From positions 1 through 53,544 of IMG/VR virus record IMGVR_UViG_3300035389_000027: DNA of 53,544 nt, one strand, 5' to 3'. The stretch comes from a virus. The notes beneath the pieces are model-generated. The model had not been told where the DNA came from. It was given only the letters and a program-made list of their open reading frames with translations, and did no database searches. Shown here piece by piece: positions 5,879 through 23,868 of this stretch (the first letter of the stretch is position 1; the number at the start of each line of letters is the position of its first letter). The position numbers were made by a program, and so were the translations under genes.

Positions 5879-7606
5879 ATGAAGCGAAAACACCAAGCGG
5901 ATACAGAAGTAATTTTTAAGAAGATGGCGGCCGGCGTCATTACAGACAAGTTTGTTCTTTGTAAAGTCGAACCGGGCGGGGGGAAAAGTGCCCTACCCGG
6001 TATCGCTGGCAAGGAATTGATTTACAAACACCTGACGGAAAAAGTTTGCTGGGTGGTCCCGAGAAAATCTTTACAGGATCAAGGGGAACGATCCTTTGAA
6101 GATCCCTTCTTCCGGGAAATGTTCGGGCATTTCCTTAGTGTCCGGTCGAGCACCAATGAAATTGATCCGTGTCGGGGAGAAGACGGCATTGTAACCACCT
6201 ACCAGGCTATAGGGATGGATAAAGCCGGGTTATTGCAGGCTGAATTCGCAATGCAACGGTTTATACTCATCTTGGATGAATTCCACCACGTCGAGCAAGA
6301 TGGAACGTGGCACAAGGCCCTGGCACCATTGGTTGAATCTGCTGAAAAAGTTTTGTTGATGACGGGGACGCTTGAGCGCGGTGATGGGAAAGCTATTGCC
6401 TTTGCGCCTTATCGTGATTCGGGCGGAGACTTGGTTGTTGATTTGAAAAAGCCGGGATATCAGGTTGTCAATTATGACCGGCAGGATGCTTTGATGGAAA
6501 AGGCTATTTTGCCCCTGGTGTTTCATTTGTCGGATGCAAGTGCATCGTGGTCCGACGAAAACGGCAAGATAAACGAAGTGCCAAGCCTGTCTACTGCCAA
6601 CCGGAAAGATGTCGGTCCTGCCGTGTTCACGGCTCTGAGTACCGGATTTGCGACAACTCTGTTAGAGCAAAGCATTGCGCATTGGGAAAATCACCGAAAA
6701 AAGGTGCCTCATGCAAAACACTTGGTTGTGACGGCAAATTTTGAGGCGGCAAAAAAGCATACTCAGTGGTTACGGGATCGCGGTTATAATGTGGAAATTG
6801 CCACCAGCCATGACAGCTCTGCAGCACACAAAGCGATCTTGCGGTATAAACGCTCCGAAATAGATATTATCGTCAGTATCGCCATGGCATATGAGGGCCT
6901 TGATGTTCCTGAAATAAGCCATATCACATCATTAACGCATATCCGGAGTATCCCGTGGATTATTCAGATGCTTGCAAGGGCGGTGCGGATAGATAAGATG
7001 GCCGGTCCCTATGAGTCTCAGGCCGGGTATATTTTTGCCCCTGATGACATGCTGTTTCGGAAAATTGTTTCCAGGATCAAGCGGGAACAGCTTGCAGTCG
7101 TCAAAAAGCAGAAAGAAAAAATTAAAGAAAGCGAAAAAGAAAAAAAGGAACCTCAACAGCAAGGGCTTTTTGGATCCGGGAATATTTACGGCATAAAGCC
7201 CCGTGAATCGCAGTTTACCGGTGCCCGTGAGTTGGATCTTGATGGATGCCGGCCGGAACCGGAATACATTAAGCCTGCCCTGATTAAAACCAAAACAGAG
7301 CAAGAGCGAGAATTGAAAGCCGCGATTACAAATCAGATAAACCGTTTCGAGTACATCAATTGTTACGAGTTCGGCCGGATCAACAAGGAATTGGTAAAGA
7401 AATTCGGCAAGGGCCGCGGCCGGATGACTATCACTGAGTTGAACCGGGTCTGGGCGTATGTCCGGGAGACCTACCCGTTATACAGCACCGCAAAGTATCA
7501 AAAACGGCAGGGTATAAGCGGTCCTCGTGGACATGGCCGCCGGGCACCAAAGGCGCGGGATTGGACAGGGCCTGTTAATATTCCTGTGTTTGGGGGCGCC
7601 CGGTGA
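5879..7606 (+). CDS. SF2 DEAD/DEAH-type helicase
   Basis: Predicted 575-residue ATP-dependent helicase or translocase for phage replication or repair. Motif I is EPGGGKSAL, motif II LDEFHHV (DExH), and motif III LLMTGTLERG. The C-terminal RecA-like domain has IDIIVSIAMAYEGLDVPEIS and the motif VI-like SIPWIIQMLARAVRID. A lysine/glutamate-rich linker (~395-425) leads to a separate C-terminal domain of unknown role (~460-575). I chose ATG 5879 just after the preceding stop; a longer frame starting at 5798 would overlap that gene by 73 bases. Its stop overlaps the GTG of the radical-SAM gene. Confidence 0.85.
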   Translation: MKRKHQADTEVIFKKMAAGVITDKFVLCKVEPGGGKSALPGIAGKELIYKHLTEKVCWVVPRKSLQDQGERSFEDPFFREMFGHFLSVRSSTNEIDPCRGEDGIVTTYQAIGMDKAGLLQAEFAMQRFILILDEFHHVEQDGTWHKALAPLVESAEKVLLMTGTLERGDGKAIAFAPYRDSGGDLVVDLKKPGYQVVNYDRQDALMEKAILPLVFHLSDASASWSDENGKINEVPSLSTANRKDVGPAVFTALSTGFATTLLEQSIAHWENHRKKVPHAKHLVVTANFEAAKKHTQWLRDRGYNVEIATSHDSSAAHKAILRYKRSEIDIIVSIAMAYEGLDVPEISHITSLTHIRSIPWIIQMLARAVRIDKMAGPYESQAGYIFAPDDMLFRKIVSRIKREQLAVVKKQKEKIKESEKEKKEPQQQGLFGSGNIYGIKPRESQFTGARELDLDGCRPEPEYIKPALIKTKTEQERELKAAITNQINRFEYINCYEFGRINKELVKKFGKGRGRMTITELNRVWAYVRETYPLYSTAKYQKRQGISGPRGHGRRAPKARDWTGPVNIPVFGGAR

Positions 7607-8451
7607 AAATCAGCCTATTAACAGACGCGCCTAAACATAACCTTGCACTCATGAAGGTTTCGGCGTGGCACAAGGCAAATGGTGACACCGTGTCTTTGAA
7701 TATGCCTATGTTCCCTTCCGACTATCGGTATGCGTCGGTGCTGTATGAAAAAAATGCCAACAACTTCTTTGCCGATGAATATGGCGGGCCTGTTTTTCTT
7801 GATTCGCAGTTGGCAAACGAATTTGAGCAGATGAACCCGGATTATGATTTATATCCGGTTGATTACAGCCTTGGGTACACATTCCGGCCCTGTTTTAATT
7901 CCTGCGGATTTTGCAAAGTGCCCAAGATGAATCATCCTGATGTTGAGCATCATTCAATTTGGGATTTTCACGATACCCGGTTTAATAAAATTTGCCTATT
8001 GAACAATAATACTTTCCAAGATCCGAATTGGAAGGAAACTTTTGCCGAAATTTGGGACGCCGATTTGGCGGTGGTTGACGAAAACGGGTATGACTTGCGG
8101 TTACTTACAGATGAAAAGGCGGATGCATTACACAAAACCAAATGGGCAACACCTTTGCATTTCGCTTGGGATCGGATGGTTGATGAATCGCTTATTGTCG
8201 AGGGGTTAAAGTTGTTGACCAAGTATCATTTAAGGTCAACCGCGAACGGTGTTTATATCCTTATCGGATATGACACAACACCAGCGGAAGATTTGCATAG
8301 GTGCCAAGTTGTTCACAGTTATGGGCTGACGCCGTACCCGATGCCATACGTCAAGACCGGGTACACCAGAAGATTCAAGCGATTTGTAAATCTGCATTAT
8401 TACCGGCAATACAAAACTATTGAGGCGGCATGGATGGATTATGCTGCATGA
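7603..8451 (+). CDS. Radical-SAM-type protein of phage replication region
   Basis: 282-residue protein with a CX3CX2C motif at C97, C101 and C104 (RPCFNSCGFCK), the signature that binds a 4Fe-4S cluster in radical-SAM enzymes. The first ~90 residues (LLTDAPKHNLALMKVSAWHK) look like the cobalamin-binding-like Rossmann domain that precedes the barrel in several radical-SAM families, but without a DxHxxG cobalamin motif. Start is GTG 7603, overlapping the helicase stop (GTGA). Its place between helicase and nuclease suggests DNA or nucleotide modification. The substrate is unknown. Confidence 0.75.
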   Translation: MKISLLTDAPKHNLALMKVSAWHKANGDTVSLNMPMFPSDYRYASVLYEKNANNFFADEYGGPVFLDSQLANEFEQMNPDYDLYPVDYSLGYTFRPCFNSCGFCKVPKMNHPDVEHHSIWDFHDTRFNKICLLNNNTFQDPNWKETFAEIWDADLAVVDENGYDLRLLTDEKADALHKTKWATPLHFAWDRMVDESLIVEGLKLLTKYHLRSTANGVYILIGYDTTPAEDLHRCQVVHSYGLTPYPMPYVKTGYTRRFKRFVNLHYYRQYKTIEAAWMDYAA

Positions 8452-10121: not shown

Positions 10122-10322
10122 ATGTGTGAATGGCAAGCCCGTCCGACAATTGTTGATCATGCCGGGCGGCGCTTTGCCGTACTTGAGGGGGCCATGGTGT
10201 TTGAATTGGTCAAAGTTTATGGTGCGCATCGGCACCGTCGGTGGAAAGTGGTCGATGGGGATATGCCGGCTGTTTGTGCTATGGCGGTCATGAAAGAATA
10301 TTTTGAACGGGGACAGCTTTGA
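10122..10322 (+). CDS. Small hypothetical protein
   Basis: 66-residue protein of unknown function between the MazG-like and cytosine methyltransferase genes. It starts at ATG 10122 two bases after the preceding stop, with GGAAGG about 11 bases upstream. Its stop overlaps the TTG start of the methyltransferase. The sequence (ARPTIVDHAGRRFAVLEGAMV) looks like a small beta-rich fold, but I recognise no family. The tight packing on both sides is the main support for its being real. Confidence 0.55.
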   Translation: MCEWQARPTIVDHAGRRFAVLEGAMVFELVKVYGAHRHRRWKVVDGDMPAVCAMAVMKEYFERGQL

Positions 10323-11317
10323 ATTACTATAACGATAACGATAGGAAAGTTGCACAATGGCTAAAAAATTTGATTTCCGGCGGCCTTATCCCACCAGGAG
10401 ATGTAGACGAAAGGAGTATCATCGATGTTGAACCGTCAGACCTTACCGGATATACCCAGTGTCATTTTTTCGCAGGTATCGGGGGATGGCCGGAAGCCTT
10501 GCGCCTTGCCGGCTGGTCATCAATTAAGCCTGTTTGGACAGGAAGTTGCCCCTGTCAACCCTTTTCGGTGGCGGGGGCTGGGAAAGGCGTTAAAGACAAA
10601 AGGCATTTGTGGCCTGAGTTCTGCCGCCTTATCTGTGAGTGCAACCCTCCAGACGTTTTTGGAGAACAGGTTGCGTCAAAACTTGGGAAAGAATGGCTCT
10701 CCGGAGTACGCCTTGACTTGGAAGAGATGGGATATGCAGTCGGGGCCGCCGATTTGTGCGCTGCGAGCATCGGTGCACCGCATATCCGCCAAAGGATATG
10801 GTGGGTGGGTCACTCCATCAAGCCGAGATTGGAAGGATTCGCCGGGGATGTCCCTCACAGCTGTGAACCCGGACGGGTCCAAGCGGTCGCGGGTGGATCA
10901 ATTGCCCAGGCAGGCGCAGTTAACCGGGTGGCCAACACCCCGAACAGTGACGGGCGGGGCGGAAAGTGCCGAACGCAAGAAGGAACTGGGCCGGGAAAAG
11001 TCCGGCGGCGGGGATCTTCAATCGGCGGCGTTAATGGCCTGGTGGCCAACACCAAACGTAATGACAGGCGGGCAGACAAGCCGAAGCGGGAAACGGAAAA
11101 ACGAGCTATTAATGGGCGGTTTGGTCCGTGGTCAGACTTCGACCTCATCCCCTGTGCGGACGGCAAAACGCGGCGTATTGAATCCGGAGTTGCCCCGCTG
11201 GTTGATGGGGTTCCGGGCCGGGTGGTCAAATTACGCGGATATGGAAACGCCATTGCCCCTCCATTAGCTGCTGAATTCATTAAGGCTGCAGGAGCGTTTA
11301 AGGGAATCGATTTATGA
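10319..11317 (+). CDS. C5-cytosine DNA methyltransferase
   Basis: Methylates cytosine C5 in a specific DNA sequence, probably to protect phage DNA from restriction. Motif I is FFAGIGGW (residues ~49-56), motif IV is SCPCQPFS with catalytic Cys79, motif VI is reduced to FGEQV, motif VIII is RQRIWWV, and motif X is GYGNAIAPPLAAEFI near the C-terminus. Motifs I and IV are unusually close, which I know from a family of phage cytosine methyltransferases. The target-recognition region (~170-260) is low-complexity, glycine- and arginine-rich, and is the part doubly coded by a second ORF. Start is TTG 10319 with GGGGAC upstream. Confidence 0.88.
   Translation: MNYYNDNDRKVAQWLKNLISGGLIPPGDVDERSIIDVEPSDLTGYTQCHFFAGIGGWPEALRLAGWSSIKPVWTGSCPCQPFSVAGAGKGVKDKRHLWPEFCRLICECNPPDVFGEQVASKLGKEWLSGVRLDLEEMGYAVGAADLCAASIGAPHIRQRIWWVGHSIKPRLEGFAGDVPHSCEPGRVQAVAGGSIAQAGAVNRVANTPNSDGRGGKCRTQEGTGPGKVRRRGSSIGGVNGLVANTKRNDRRADKPKRETEKRAINGRFGPWSDFDLIPCADGKTRRIESGVAPLVDGVPGRVVKLRGYGNAIAPPLAAEFIKAAGAFKGIDL
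10425..11267 (+). CDS. 280-residue overlapping ORF inside the cytosine methyltransferase gene
   Basis: A second reading frame fully inside the methyltransferase gene stays open for 843 bases and starts at ATG 10425 with a textbook ribosome binding site (AAGGAG at 10411-10416, 8 bases upstream). The protein is not a random shadow: it has LSLFGQEVAPVNP, LENRLRQ, YALTWKRWDMQSGPPICALRAS, repeated GW-x-TP or WPTP units and NPELPRWLMGF near the end. From memory this pattern recurs in database proteins of phages and prophages, usually annotated as hypothetical. Function unknown. It may be a partner of the methyltransferase or an independent protein. Confidence 0.6.
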   Translation: MLNRQTLPDIPSVIFSQVSGDGRKPCALPAGHQLSLFGQEVAPVNPFRWRGLGKALKTKGICGLSSAALSVSATLQTFLENRLRQNLGKNGSPEYALTWKRWDMQSGPPICALRASVHRISAKGYGGWVTPSSRDWKDSPGMSLTAVNPDGSKRSRVDQLPRQAQLTGWPTPRTVTGGAESAERKKELGREKSGGGDLQSAALMAWWPTPNVMTGGQTSRSGKRKNELLMGGLVRGQTSTSSPVRTAKRGVLNPELPRWLMGFRAGWSNYADMETPLPLH

Positions 11318-16074: not shown

Positions 16075-17142
16075 ATGCTTTACTGGGAACAAGGCGGGAA
16101 TAAAATTTATCACGGGCATGTCCTGAATGAGCTTCGAAGCATGGAAGCTAAGTCGGTCCATTGTTGCGTGACATCCCCGCCTTACTGGGGTTTAAGAAAT
16201 TATGACACGCCGGCGCAGGTATGGGGTGATTCCGAAAAATCCGGGGCATGGTTTGGGTCATACGGCCTTGAGCCGACTCCGGAGCTGTTTGTCGAGCACA
16301 CTGTTGAAGTTTTCCGGGAAGTTCGCCGGGTACTTCGAGATGACGGCACCCTTTGGCTTAATTTGGGCGATTCTTATTTTGCTGGTGGCGGTTCAACCGA
16401 ATATGGGCAGAATACGCAAAATTTCATAGAAAAATCTTCAATCCAGGGGGGCTATACCGAGGGCCAATGCTCCCGGCCGATAAAACCTAAGAAACACCCA
16501 AACCTAAAACCCAAGAATCTCGTTGGCATTCCCTGGCGTGTTGCACTGGCCCTGCAGGCCGATGGTTGTGCAGATATTAAGGCAGTCCAGGTGCTTGAAA
16601 GAGTGATGTCCGAGATAATGAATGAATATGTTGATGAACCCATCCCGGACAAAGTTTTAATTGCGCTTGAAAGGCTAAAAGGCGAATGGACACAGGCAAA
16701 AGGCGATTCTTGGTATCTCAGGCAAGATATTATCTGGCATAAAAAGAACCCCATGCCTGAATCCGTCAAGGATCGATGCACCAAAAGCCATGAATACATA
16801 TTTCTTTTAAGCAAATCTCCTAAATACTATTTTGACGCGGATGCAATAAAAGAAAAAGCCTCTCCGGAATCACATGCCCGGTATGCCCGGGGCAGATCTT
16901 CTCACCACAAATATGCAGACGGCGGGCCCGGGAACCAGTCCATAGCAAAATCCTTCAAGCATATGCGGAAACCTGGTGTAAATCCCAAGGCGGCCATGAA
17001 TGCCAAAGGGTCAAAGCAAAACGCCAGCTTTTCGGCGGCTATAAAGGACATAGTGGAATACAGGAATAAACGATCGGTTTGGTCGATACCCACAAAAGGC
17101 GTTAAGGGCGCTCATTTTGCCACGTTTCCGACTGCCCTTTGA
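16075..17142 (+). CDS. Beta-class DNA N-methyltransferase, C-terminally truncated
   Basis: Resembles DNA (N4-cytosine or N6-adenine) methyltransferases of the beta class. The catalytic motif IV is CVTSPPYWGLRNY, followed by GTLWLNLGDSYF and WYLRQDIIWHKKNPMPESVKDR...HEYIFLLSKSPKYYFD, all family hallmarks. The protein stops at HFATFPTAL. In full-length relatives this segment is followed by the SAM-binding motif I (DPFxGSGTT type), which is missing here and not found in the next bases in any frame. It may be inactive, a pseudogene, or dependent on a partner. Start ATG 16075, 355 aa. Confidence 0.78.
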   Translation: MLYWEQGGNKIYHGHVLNELRSMEAKSVHCCVTSPPYWGLRNYDTPAQVWGDSEKSGAWFGSYGLEPTPELFVEHTVEVFREVRRVLRDDGTLWLNLGDSYFAGGGSTEYGQNTQNFIEKSSIQGGYTEGQCSRPIKPKKHPNLKPKNLVGIPWRVALALQADGCADIKAVQVLERVMSEIMNEYVDEPIPDKVLIALERLKGEWTQAKGDSWYLRQDIIWHKKNPMPESVKDRCTKSHEYIFLLSKSPKYYFDADAIKEKASPESHARYARGRSSHHKYADGGPGNQSIAKSFKHMRKPGVNPKAAMNAKGSKQNASFSAAIKDIVEYRNKRSVWSIPTKGVKGAHFATFPTAL

Positions 17143-22110: not shown

Positions 22111-22172
22111 CTCTCCATAAAGTAAAAAAGATTACTTTATTTAAAGACATTTTTGTCAACTTTTATGGAGAG
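22111..22172 (+). promoter_or_regulatory. Alternative hairpins over the capsid ribosome binding site
   Basis: CTCTCCATAAAGT (22111-22123) can pair with 22159-22172, which contains the Shine-Dalgarno GGAGAGG of the capsid gene (one bulged base). A second hairpin, TAAAGTAA (22118-22125) with TTACTTTA (22132-22139), uses part of the same left arm, so the two cannot form together. The CTTTATTTAAAG motif lies at 22135-22146. This looks like a translation switch or promoter region; no T-tract. Confidence 0.5.
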
Positions 22173-22179
22173 GTTACGA

Positions 22180-23790
22180 ATGAAAGCAAAATACAAAAAA
22201 AGAATGGAAGATATCGAGCGTCGGTCCAACGAAATGAAAGAGACCTTGCTTGACCCTGTTGTTGATGACTCGACCGGTAAATTCATCGGTGAATCCGCTA
22301 CCCGTAACGAACGGCTTGAAGCGGTGACCGAGAATTCTGTTTTTGAGAGCGCCGGCAAAGGCGCGGCCACGATTCAGGGGACCGCTTCCAATGCCCTGCG
22401 TAAATACTGTAACACCTATGGTGCCATGCCGGGTGCAGACCTGCTGGCATCCGCCCATATGGCCATCGAGCAAGGCCTTGCATGTACCTCTGAAAATGGA
22501 AACCGTCCTGATGGGCTAGTGCTTGAGTCCGCCTTATCCACCACTGAGGGCATTTTGATGCGTGACCGGATGGTTGCCCTGGTGTTACCTGTTTTGCTTC
22601 ATTCCATCACGTCCAGAATGGTTACCCATATTCCCGGGACCTTTAACCAGTCCGAGATTTTTAAAATCAGGCGGATTGCAAAAAGCGCGTTCGGCGGTGT
22701 CTCCATCGGTGATGAGATCGGTTACGACTTTTCCGGACAGTACGGCAGCATGGACCAGCGTTACGAGGTCAAAGCCGGAGATGGTATAGAAGTCGGCGGC
22801 GCGGCCAGTACCACGGCCGACTTTTTCCAATGGGATTCGGAAGCTGTACTGGGTGTTGTCACGCCCATGAAGAAAAAAAGAACCAAGATCATGCATGACA
22901 ATGACATCGTTGCCGTGGATGACGGCTCCGGTAACCTGTACGGCACCTTTCTTGTCGGGGAGACCACCGTTACCGTGACCGGTACGGTTAACAATGCCAC
23001 CGGTGTTGTGAATCCTGTTTTTTCGACTGCCCCGGCAGCTGGAATCAAAATTGCCGTTGCCTTCGATGTCGATATTGAAGCCAAGCCGGCCCTGATACCG
23101 ATCACTGATTACGAAATGGACAGCGGTGTTCTGTATCCCCACGAATCCGCCATTTCCTGCGGTGTAACGCTTCAGTCCCTCTGGGCCATGCGTCGGGAAT
23201 ATAACCTGAACATGGAATCCATGGCAATGACCGACCTGCGAAACCTTATTGCTACTGACAAAGATCGTAAAATCCTTTCGGATCTGCGGTATTTTGCCAA
23301 GGGTAGCGCATCTTGGAACGTCACCGTGCCCGAGGGCCTGTATTTTCAGGAACATTATGAAACCCTGCGGAAAAAGCTGATTGAAATCGATGCCACTATG
23401 ATGAACCGTACCGGTAAGGCTGGTTTGTCCGGGGTCGTTTTTGACAAGAACTCCGCTACCATTGTCAAGGCCATAAAAGCCCCGCATTTCGTACCGGCCC
23501 CCGGTTACAGGCGTTTGCCTTATCCGCATTACATTGGTCGACTGTTCGGCATGTGGGACGCTTACGAAGACCCCCAGGGAACCGCAAACACAAACCTGTG
23601 TTACGGCGTTGGTAACAGCGTTGGGGAAGCCGGTTATGTTGCCGGTGATTGTGTCCCGGCCCTGCCTTTCAAACATCCGGTCCTTGGTGATCTCAAATAC
23701 TCCAGTACCCTCTGGAGCCTGGGCTATCGTGACCTGAACCCCTTTGACGGTCGAAACTATTTCATGGAACTGCTTTTTACAACCTCCTGA
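22180..23790 (+). CDS. Major capsid protein
   Basis: Main shell protein, 536 aa. The conserved core is recognisable (DGLVLESALSTTEGILMRDR, HIPGTFNQSEIFKIRRIAKSAFGGVSIGDEIG, a D-S-G-V-L-Y-PHESAISCGV segment, and a C-terminal PHYIGRLFGMWDAYEDP) and matches a family of phage major capsid proteins. A threonine/valine-rich insert (~260-300) looks like an Ig-like or decoration insert. I chose ATG 22180 with GGAGAGG upstream; a TTG at 22153 lies further back in the leader. The N-terminal ~70 residues may be a removable scaffold, but no protease was seen in the window. Confidence 0.88.
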   Translation: MKAKYKKRMEDIERRSNEMKETLLDPVVDDSTGKFIGESATRNERLEAVTENSVFESAGKGAATIQGTASNALRKYCNTYGAMPGADLLASAHMAIEQGLACTSENGNRPDGLVLESALSTTEGILMRDRMVALVLPVLLHSITSRMVTHIPGTFNQSEIFKIRRIAKSAFGGVSIGDEIGYDFSGQYGSMDQRYEVKAGDGIEVGGAASTTADFFQWDSEAVLGVVTPMKKKRTKIMHDNDIVAVDDGSGNLYGTFLVGETTVTVTGTVNNATGVVNPVFSTAPAAGIKIAVAFDVDIEAKPALIPITDYEMDSGVLYPHESAISCGVTLQSLWAMRREYNLNMESMAMTDLRNLIATDKDRKILSDLRYFAKGSASWNVTVPEGLYFQEHYETLRKKLIEIDATMMNRTGKAGLSGVVFDKNSATIVKAIKAPHFVPAPGYRRLPYPHYIGRLFGMWDAYEDPQGTANTNLCYGVGNSVGEAGYVAGDCVPALPFKHPVLGDLKYSSTLWSLGYRDLNPFDGRNYFMELLFTTS

Positions 23791-23810
23791 TAAGTAGCCG
23801 TGTGTCAGTG

Positions 23811-23838
23811 ACGGGGGCCGAGCGATATCGGCCCTCGT
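23811..23838 (+). terminator. 11-bp hairpin after the capsid gene
   Basis: Stem 23811-23821 pairs with 23828-23838 (one G-T pair), loop GCGATA. It lies 21 bases after the capsid stop. No T-run follows, only CCTCCCCTT. It may stabilise or process the capsid mRNA 3' end, or be a factor-dependent terminator. A similar hairpin follows the sheath gene. Confidence 0.55.
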
Positions 23839-23868
23839 CCTCCCCTTAAACATCACAGGAGAAAATCC

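Follow-up and report, generated by a model that had tools for sequence, protein, structure and literature searches.

Two overlapping frames in a phage methyltransferase gene

The window, which is the whole 53,544-nucleotide stretch of DNA analyzed here, is a virus record with terminase, anti-repressor and helicase genes. Within it we examined a C5-cytosine methyltransferase (MTase) gene, the frame of which we call alpha, and a second long open reading frame (ORF), beta, that is nested inside it (Table 1). The initial annotation had described two overlapping ORFs at this position and both are indeed present, with the nested ORF in the +1 frame, starting at an ATG with the Shine-Dalgarno (SD) sequence AAGGAG 8 nt upstream.

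Table 1. Coordinates in the window of the alpha and beta frames and of their features.
Feature	Position	Strand	Match or basis
Alpha, C5-cytosine methyltransferase frame, 332 aa, TTG start	10319..11317	+	PF00145, phrog_363
Beta, nested ORF, +1 frame, 280 aa, ATG start	10425..11267	+	phrog_1008, open in 279/281 loci
Shine-Dalgarno AAGGAG for nested ORF, in codons of alpha motif VDERSI (AGG Arg codon)	10411..10416	+	
Beta W-x-TP unit 1 (GWVTP)	10803..10817	+	
Beta W-x-TP unit 2 (GWPTP)	10926..10940	+	
Beta W-x-TP unit 3 (WWPTP)	11040..11054	+	
Beta motif-IX-like element, VLNPELPRWLMGFRAGW	11175..11225	+	
Alpha residues 187-267, predicted disordered linker; same DNA as beta W-x-TP region	10877..11119	+	pLDDT
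Alpha motif X (GNAI)	11243..11254	+	

The same phage encodes another DNA methyltransferase (window 16075-17142; PF01555, N6/N4 type). Elsewhere in the window there is a radical SAM family protein (phrog_9298, 7603-8451) directly after the helicase gene, and a 423-codon open frame on the minus strand (22585-23856) that is antisense to a 545-codon ORF without a Pfam match on the plus strand (22153-23790).

Conservation of the nested frame and selection on both frames

We gathered several hundred loci from viral, phage and genome collections and found the nested ORF uninterrupted, and spanning the family profile, in 279 of 281 distinct full-length MTases; in all 279 it was in the +1 frame. The two exceptions were L049, whose nested frame is split by an insertion, and L280, whose nested frame is broken by a single stop. 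This openness is not due to loci having been selected by their nested protein, because all 80 of the viral loci that were picked by their MTase alone have beta. That MTase-selected set is the unbiased one; the other 80 viral hits, which are real loci but beta-selected, were retrieved with a nested-type query sequence that was composed for the purpose. A +1 ORF that matches the nested profile, 190-685 codons long, is also present in more distantly related C5 MTases (L214-L256; Alphaproteobacteria, Firmicutes, Bacteroidetes and others), at G+C contents as low as 41%. When 299 genomes were drawn evenly, they gave 23 beta matches (some of them pieces of one gene), every one of which overlapped an MTase in the +1 frame; none was a stand-alone beta.

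Several individual loci deserve mention. The insertions in L049 (1052-2645) and L057 (1145-2648) both follow the PCQ region and stay open in the alpha frame, and the nested-frame translation of that in L049 resembles a zinc-binding endonuclease-type domain (CSDCG...CKVCRNK) with no Pfam match. L205, from an Arsenophonus endosymbiont, L202 and L201 are degenerate: frameshifts have broken their alpha and beta frames or swapped them. L091 and L102 each have a single in-frame stop in alpha (TAG and TAA, respectively) with beta intact, which may reflect sequencing error, recoding or decay. The nested ORF is present in gene 58 of Escherichia phage N15 (L015, 1684-2410), for which the record annotates the MTase frame only; the match of this ORF sets in about 28 positions into the profile, and its start differs. 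A match in a Klebsiella aerogenes plasmid was considered as a possible EaeI locus and rejected, as it looks like a prophage remnant.

How likely is it that a frame of this length would be open by chance? When codons were shuffled synonymously within each MTase, 676 stops were expected in the +1 frame of 215 sequences and none was seen, in a set that counts the window twice (as W and as L016) and was chosen for an open nested ORF, a choice that excluded only two of the 281 MTases. For the +2 frame the same shuffles gave 2470 expected stops and slightly more, 2815, were seen. For the MTase of the window alone, 4.7-4.8 stops were expected in the +1 frame, none was observed, and none of 300 shuffles was open. 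As a control, stops were counted in the +1 frame of 23 ordinary C5 MTases that carry motif IX themselves: there were 232, with 231.6 expected, and the frame was open in none; Streptococcus phage MTases with motif IX in frame also have many +1 stops. The openness of the nested frame is far beyond chance.

The initial annotation had raised dual coding for the case that both frames are under selection and had suggested an overlap-aware comparison of substitution rates, and the outcome strongly supports dual coding. By an OLGenie-like count over 68 independent pairs of 72-97% identity, the nested frame had a dNN/dNS of 0.69 (0.66-0.72) and a dSN/dSS of 0.30 (0.24-0.37), and the MTase frame in the same pairs gave 0.55 and 0.24. 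The corresponding controls were about 1: 0.98 and 0.82 for the non-overlapping ends of the MTase, and 1.08 and 1.05 for 22 pairs of flanking genes, as expected of a meaningless frame. The constraint is unevenly distributed, in that the MTase frame is the more constrained in the first third of the overlap (0.20/0.09 vs 0.78/0.33 for the nested frame) and the nested frame is the more constrained in the middle third (0.57/0.18 vs 0.88/0.29 for the MTase). Neither of the outcomes that had been named beforehand as speaking against dual coding, a nested frame broken beside an intact MTase and a lack of synonymous constraint, occurred; the nested frame is nearly always intact and the synonymous constraint on it is strong. 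That purifying selection acts on both frames is thus strongly supported.

The start of beta is also strongly selected. A nested-frame start codon preceded by an SD sequence was present in 66% of 214 loci, with 27% expected, and for an SD with ATG specifically the frequency was 63% vs 17% expected (3.6-fold, z=18.6). In the alpha frame the SD falls within the VDERSI motif, where the rare Arg codons AGG/AGA account for 41% of usage relative to 19% elsewhere.

Probable division of methyltransferase motifs between alpha and beta

The initial annotation had credited the MTase frame with motifs I, IV, VIII and X. Alignment confirmed these, with motif IV as PCQ, and also identified motif VI, as GEQV instead of ENV; the point that requires correction is that the MTase frame has no motif IX. 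The match of alpha to PF00145 (4e-16) covers only profile positions 66-165 of 324, corresponding to motifs IV-VIII, and phrog_363 matches alpha over its length. A structural model of alpha matched M.HaeIII and M.HhaI in Foldseek (E about 5e-8) and was confident for about residues 1-170, with pLDDT below 50 nearly throughout residues 187-267. The small domain of C5 MTases is made up of the variable region and motif IX (PMC3404938). In alpha, the place where one would look for a recognition domain and motif IX is taken by this predicted disordered gap. Classical motif IX was not found in any of 84 alpha frames of the family or of 43 distant ones. Among the genome MTases checked, motif IX is in frame in the four that have no beta match and is lacking from the two that have beta.

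Beta has its best profile match to phrog_1008. Sequence searches with beta of Pfam, NCBIfam, PADLOC and the PDB returned nothing significant, and Pfam does not call it PF00145. The AlphaFold2 model of beta alone was poor (pLDDT 60, pTM 0.31), and a Foldseek search with it likewise gave nothing significant. Beta has W-x-TP units, and its C-terminus has the motif-IX-like form LNPxxxxWLMGFPxxW, the LMGFP element of which was detected by regular expression in 85 of 100 family beta frames and 36 of 43 distant ones, with several of the misses carrying a variant on inspection. In a first hhalign comparison with few ordinary MTases the match fell exactly on motif IX (P 0.045), and it held with 23 ordinary MTases and permutations, the beta C-terminus aligning to their motif IX LTPRECARLMGFP with a score of 20.1 relative to at most 17.4 in 300 column permutations. 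Beta does not retain the R and E that are invariant in the classical motif.

Actinophages have a second gen­e, with 550 phage records matching, whose single product contains LPTP units, the same IX-like element (e.g., FAEWMMGxPxGW) and, after it, motif X. Getalong apart, this gene is read in +1 with respect to alpha, and alpha in most of these phages ends soon after motif VIII. Beta is homologous to this recognition/IX part: hhalign to the actinophage betas scored 66.3 for the window family (at most 19.9 in 200 permutations) and 123.4 for the distant nested set (at most 20.3 in 200 permutations). Furthermore, in Gordonia phage Stultus and the Mycobacterium abscessus prophage prophi104-2, the catalytic motifs, LPTP units, IX-like element and motif X are all in one chain. 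The nested module of the window is therefore, elsewhere, the recognition/IX part of an enzyme. In the single-chain form a remnant of the beta N-terminus is still readable in the +1 frame, which fits a later fusion as well as it fits a single-chain ancestor. In another actinophage, Gordonia phage Bibwit (L490, 845-1300), a LAGLIDADG endonuclease gene is annotated in the +1 frame inside the MTase gene gp4 and alpha is open through it.

A probable methyltransferase in two polypeptides

Phage orphan MTases protect phage DNA from host restriction. What is the function of beta at the locus in the window? We consider it very probable that the locus encodes one phage C5 methyltransferase as two polypeptides: alpha, with motifs I-VIII and X, and nested beta, with the recognition region and motif IX. 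Alpha, which lacks motif IX, would contribute motifs I, IV, VI and VIII, for catalysis and AdoMet binding, together with motif X, and would have no folded recognition domain. Beta, translated from its own internal ribosome-binding site in the +1 frame, would contribute motif IX and the recognition region with the W-x-TP units. The two are predicted to associate into an active enzyme that would methylate its target sequence and, during infection, probably protect phage DNA from host restriction. We infer that target recognition is on beta because the gap in alpha is predicted to be disordered, because beta is the more constrained frame there, and because of the actinophage series.

The initial annotation had suggested that beta might modulate the MTase or be an independent anti-restriction protein. 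More generally, beta could be a separate protein, such as an MTase regulator or an anti-restriction or host-takeover factor, whose overlap with the MTase is incidental, and its own selected start and its assignment to a separate PHROG family, with no match in Pfam, are in keeping with this. However, among the 23 matches from 299 genomes beta was never found away from an MTase, the overlapping MTases that were checked lack motif IX, and its actinophage homologs are the recognition/IX/X part of an enzyme, in some cases fused to motifs I-VIII in a single chain; nor would one expect a regulator to stand in for a part that the catalytic fold lacks. We accordingly regard such roles as unlikely. Because beta was always found to overlap an MTase, the MTases checked are without motif IX, beta itself has a IX-like element and its homologs in actinophages are part of the enzyme, beta looks like an obligatory subunit and not a protein with a separate function.

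A different route to one enzyme would be programmed +1 frameshifting that joins motifs I-VIII to the recognition/IX region, such that the functional product is a fusion and not a separate beta. Single-chain versions do exist in some actinophages, and in the window family +1 is the only frame in which beta occurs, but the internal SD and ATG are strongly selected and a fusion of the window type would lack motif X, which would be left on alpha, making this explanation very unlikely. That the nested frame merely arises from codon usage and the conservation of MTase motifs, and is untranslated, is scarcely credible, since even though high G+C makes stops rarer and conserved motifs can make shadow-frame translations look alike, it is contradicted, as far as selection is concerned, by the shuffles, the dN/dS values with their two controls, the stop counts in ordinary MTases and the start-site enrichment.

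If the locus does encode one enzyme in two polypeptides, how widely does this hold? With moderate confidence, and as a joint reading, we propose a very old and widespread class of C5 MTases that consist of reciprocally overprinted alpha/beta pairs, in which the N-terminal part of beta would lie over the catalytic frame of alpha and the alpha linker to motif X over the recognition region of beta. The class would range across phages and the genomes of Proteobacteria, Firmicutes, Bacteroidetes and cyanobacteria, actinophages would have forms of it that overlap in part or are fused, and many "single-subunit" methylases in databases would be incomplete without their hidden frame. Many phage "cytosine methyltransferases" may then be inactive if the annotated frame is cloned alone; beta, where it is annotated at all, appears under vague names. 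There are few documented cases of long same-strand overlaps in which selection on both products has been demonstrated, and an overlap of 280 codons in hundreds of phage loci and in distant bacterial phyla offers a quantitative test bed for the evolution of overlapping genes. In addition, a split enzyme with its recognition part on a separate polypeptide would be a natural start for the engineering of methylation specificity.

Existing records touch on this pair of proteins. Alpha corresponds to phrog_363 and beta to phrog_1008, and both PHROG labels are DNA methyltransferase. The "putative Mte8-like protein" of K1-type phages involves the same two proteins, with both frames annotated in some records. 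The annotations in the records we inspected give no role for beta and do not state that the overlapping frames are one enzyme, and our literature search, which lay mostly outside subscription journals, found no paper on this overlap in phages.

Among known enzymes, the closest in architecture is M.EcoHK31I, the small subunit of which is read from another frame inside the large-subunit gene, much as beta is in another frame within the alpha gene. The large subunit of M.EcoHK31I (YGGCCR) has motifs I-VIII and X, with motif IX alone reported on the small polypeptide and the recognition region placed on the large subunit (PMC3404938). Alpha in the window likewise has I-VIII and X and no IX, a likeness by architecture only, and beta has a IX-like element, albeit one that does not keep the classical R and E. 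The pair in the window differs in being encoded by a phage and in that no restriction enzyme was identified next to it; in addition, its recognition region is probably on beta instead of the large subunit. In M.AquI (CYCGRG), the catalytic half and the recognition/IX half are on two polypeptides (PMC3404938), a layout shared by the two-gene actinophage forms (alpha with I-VIII, beta with IX-X). The window differs from it too, as its beta does not carry IX together with X, motif X being on alpha, and is wholly nested. C5 methyltransferases made of two polypeptides are thus a known kind; it is the breadth of the nested arrangement, and the evidence for selection on both of its frames, that look new.
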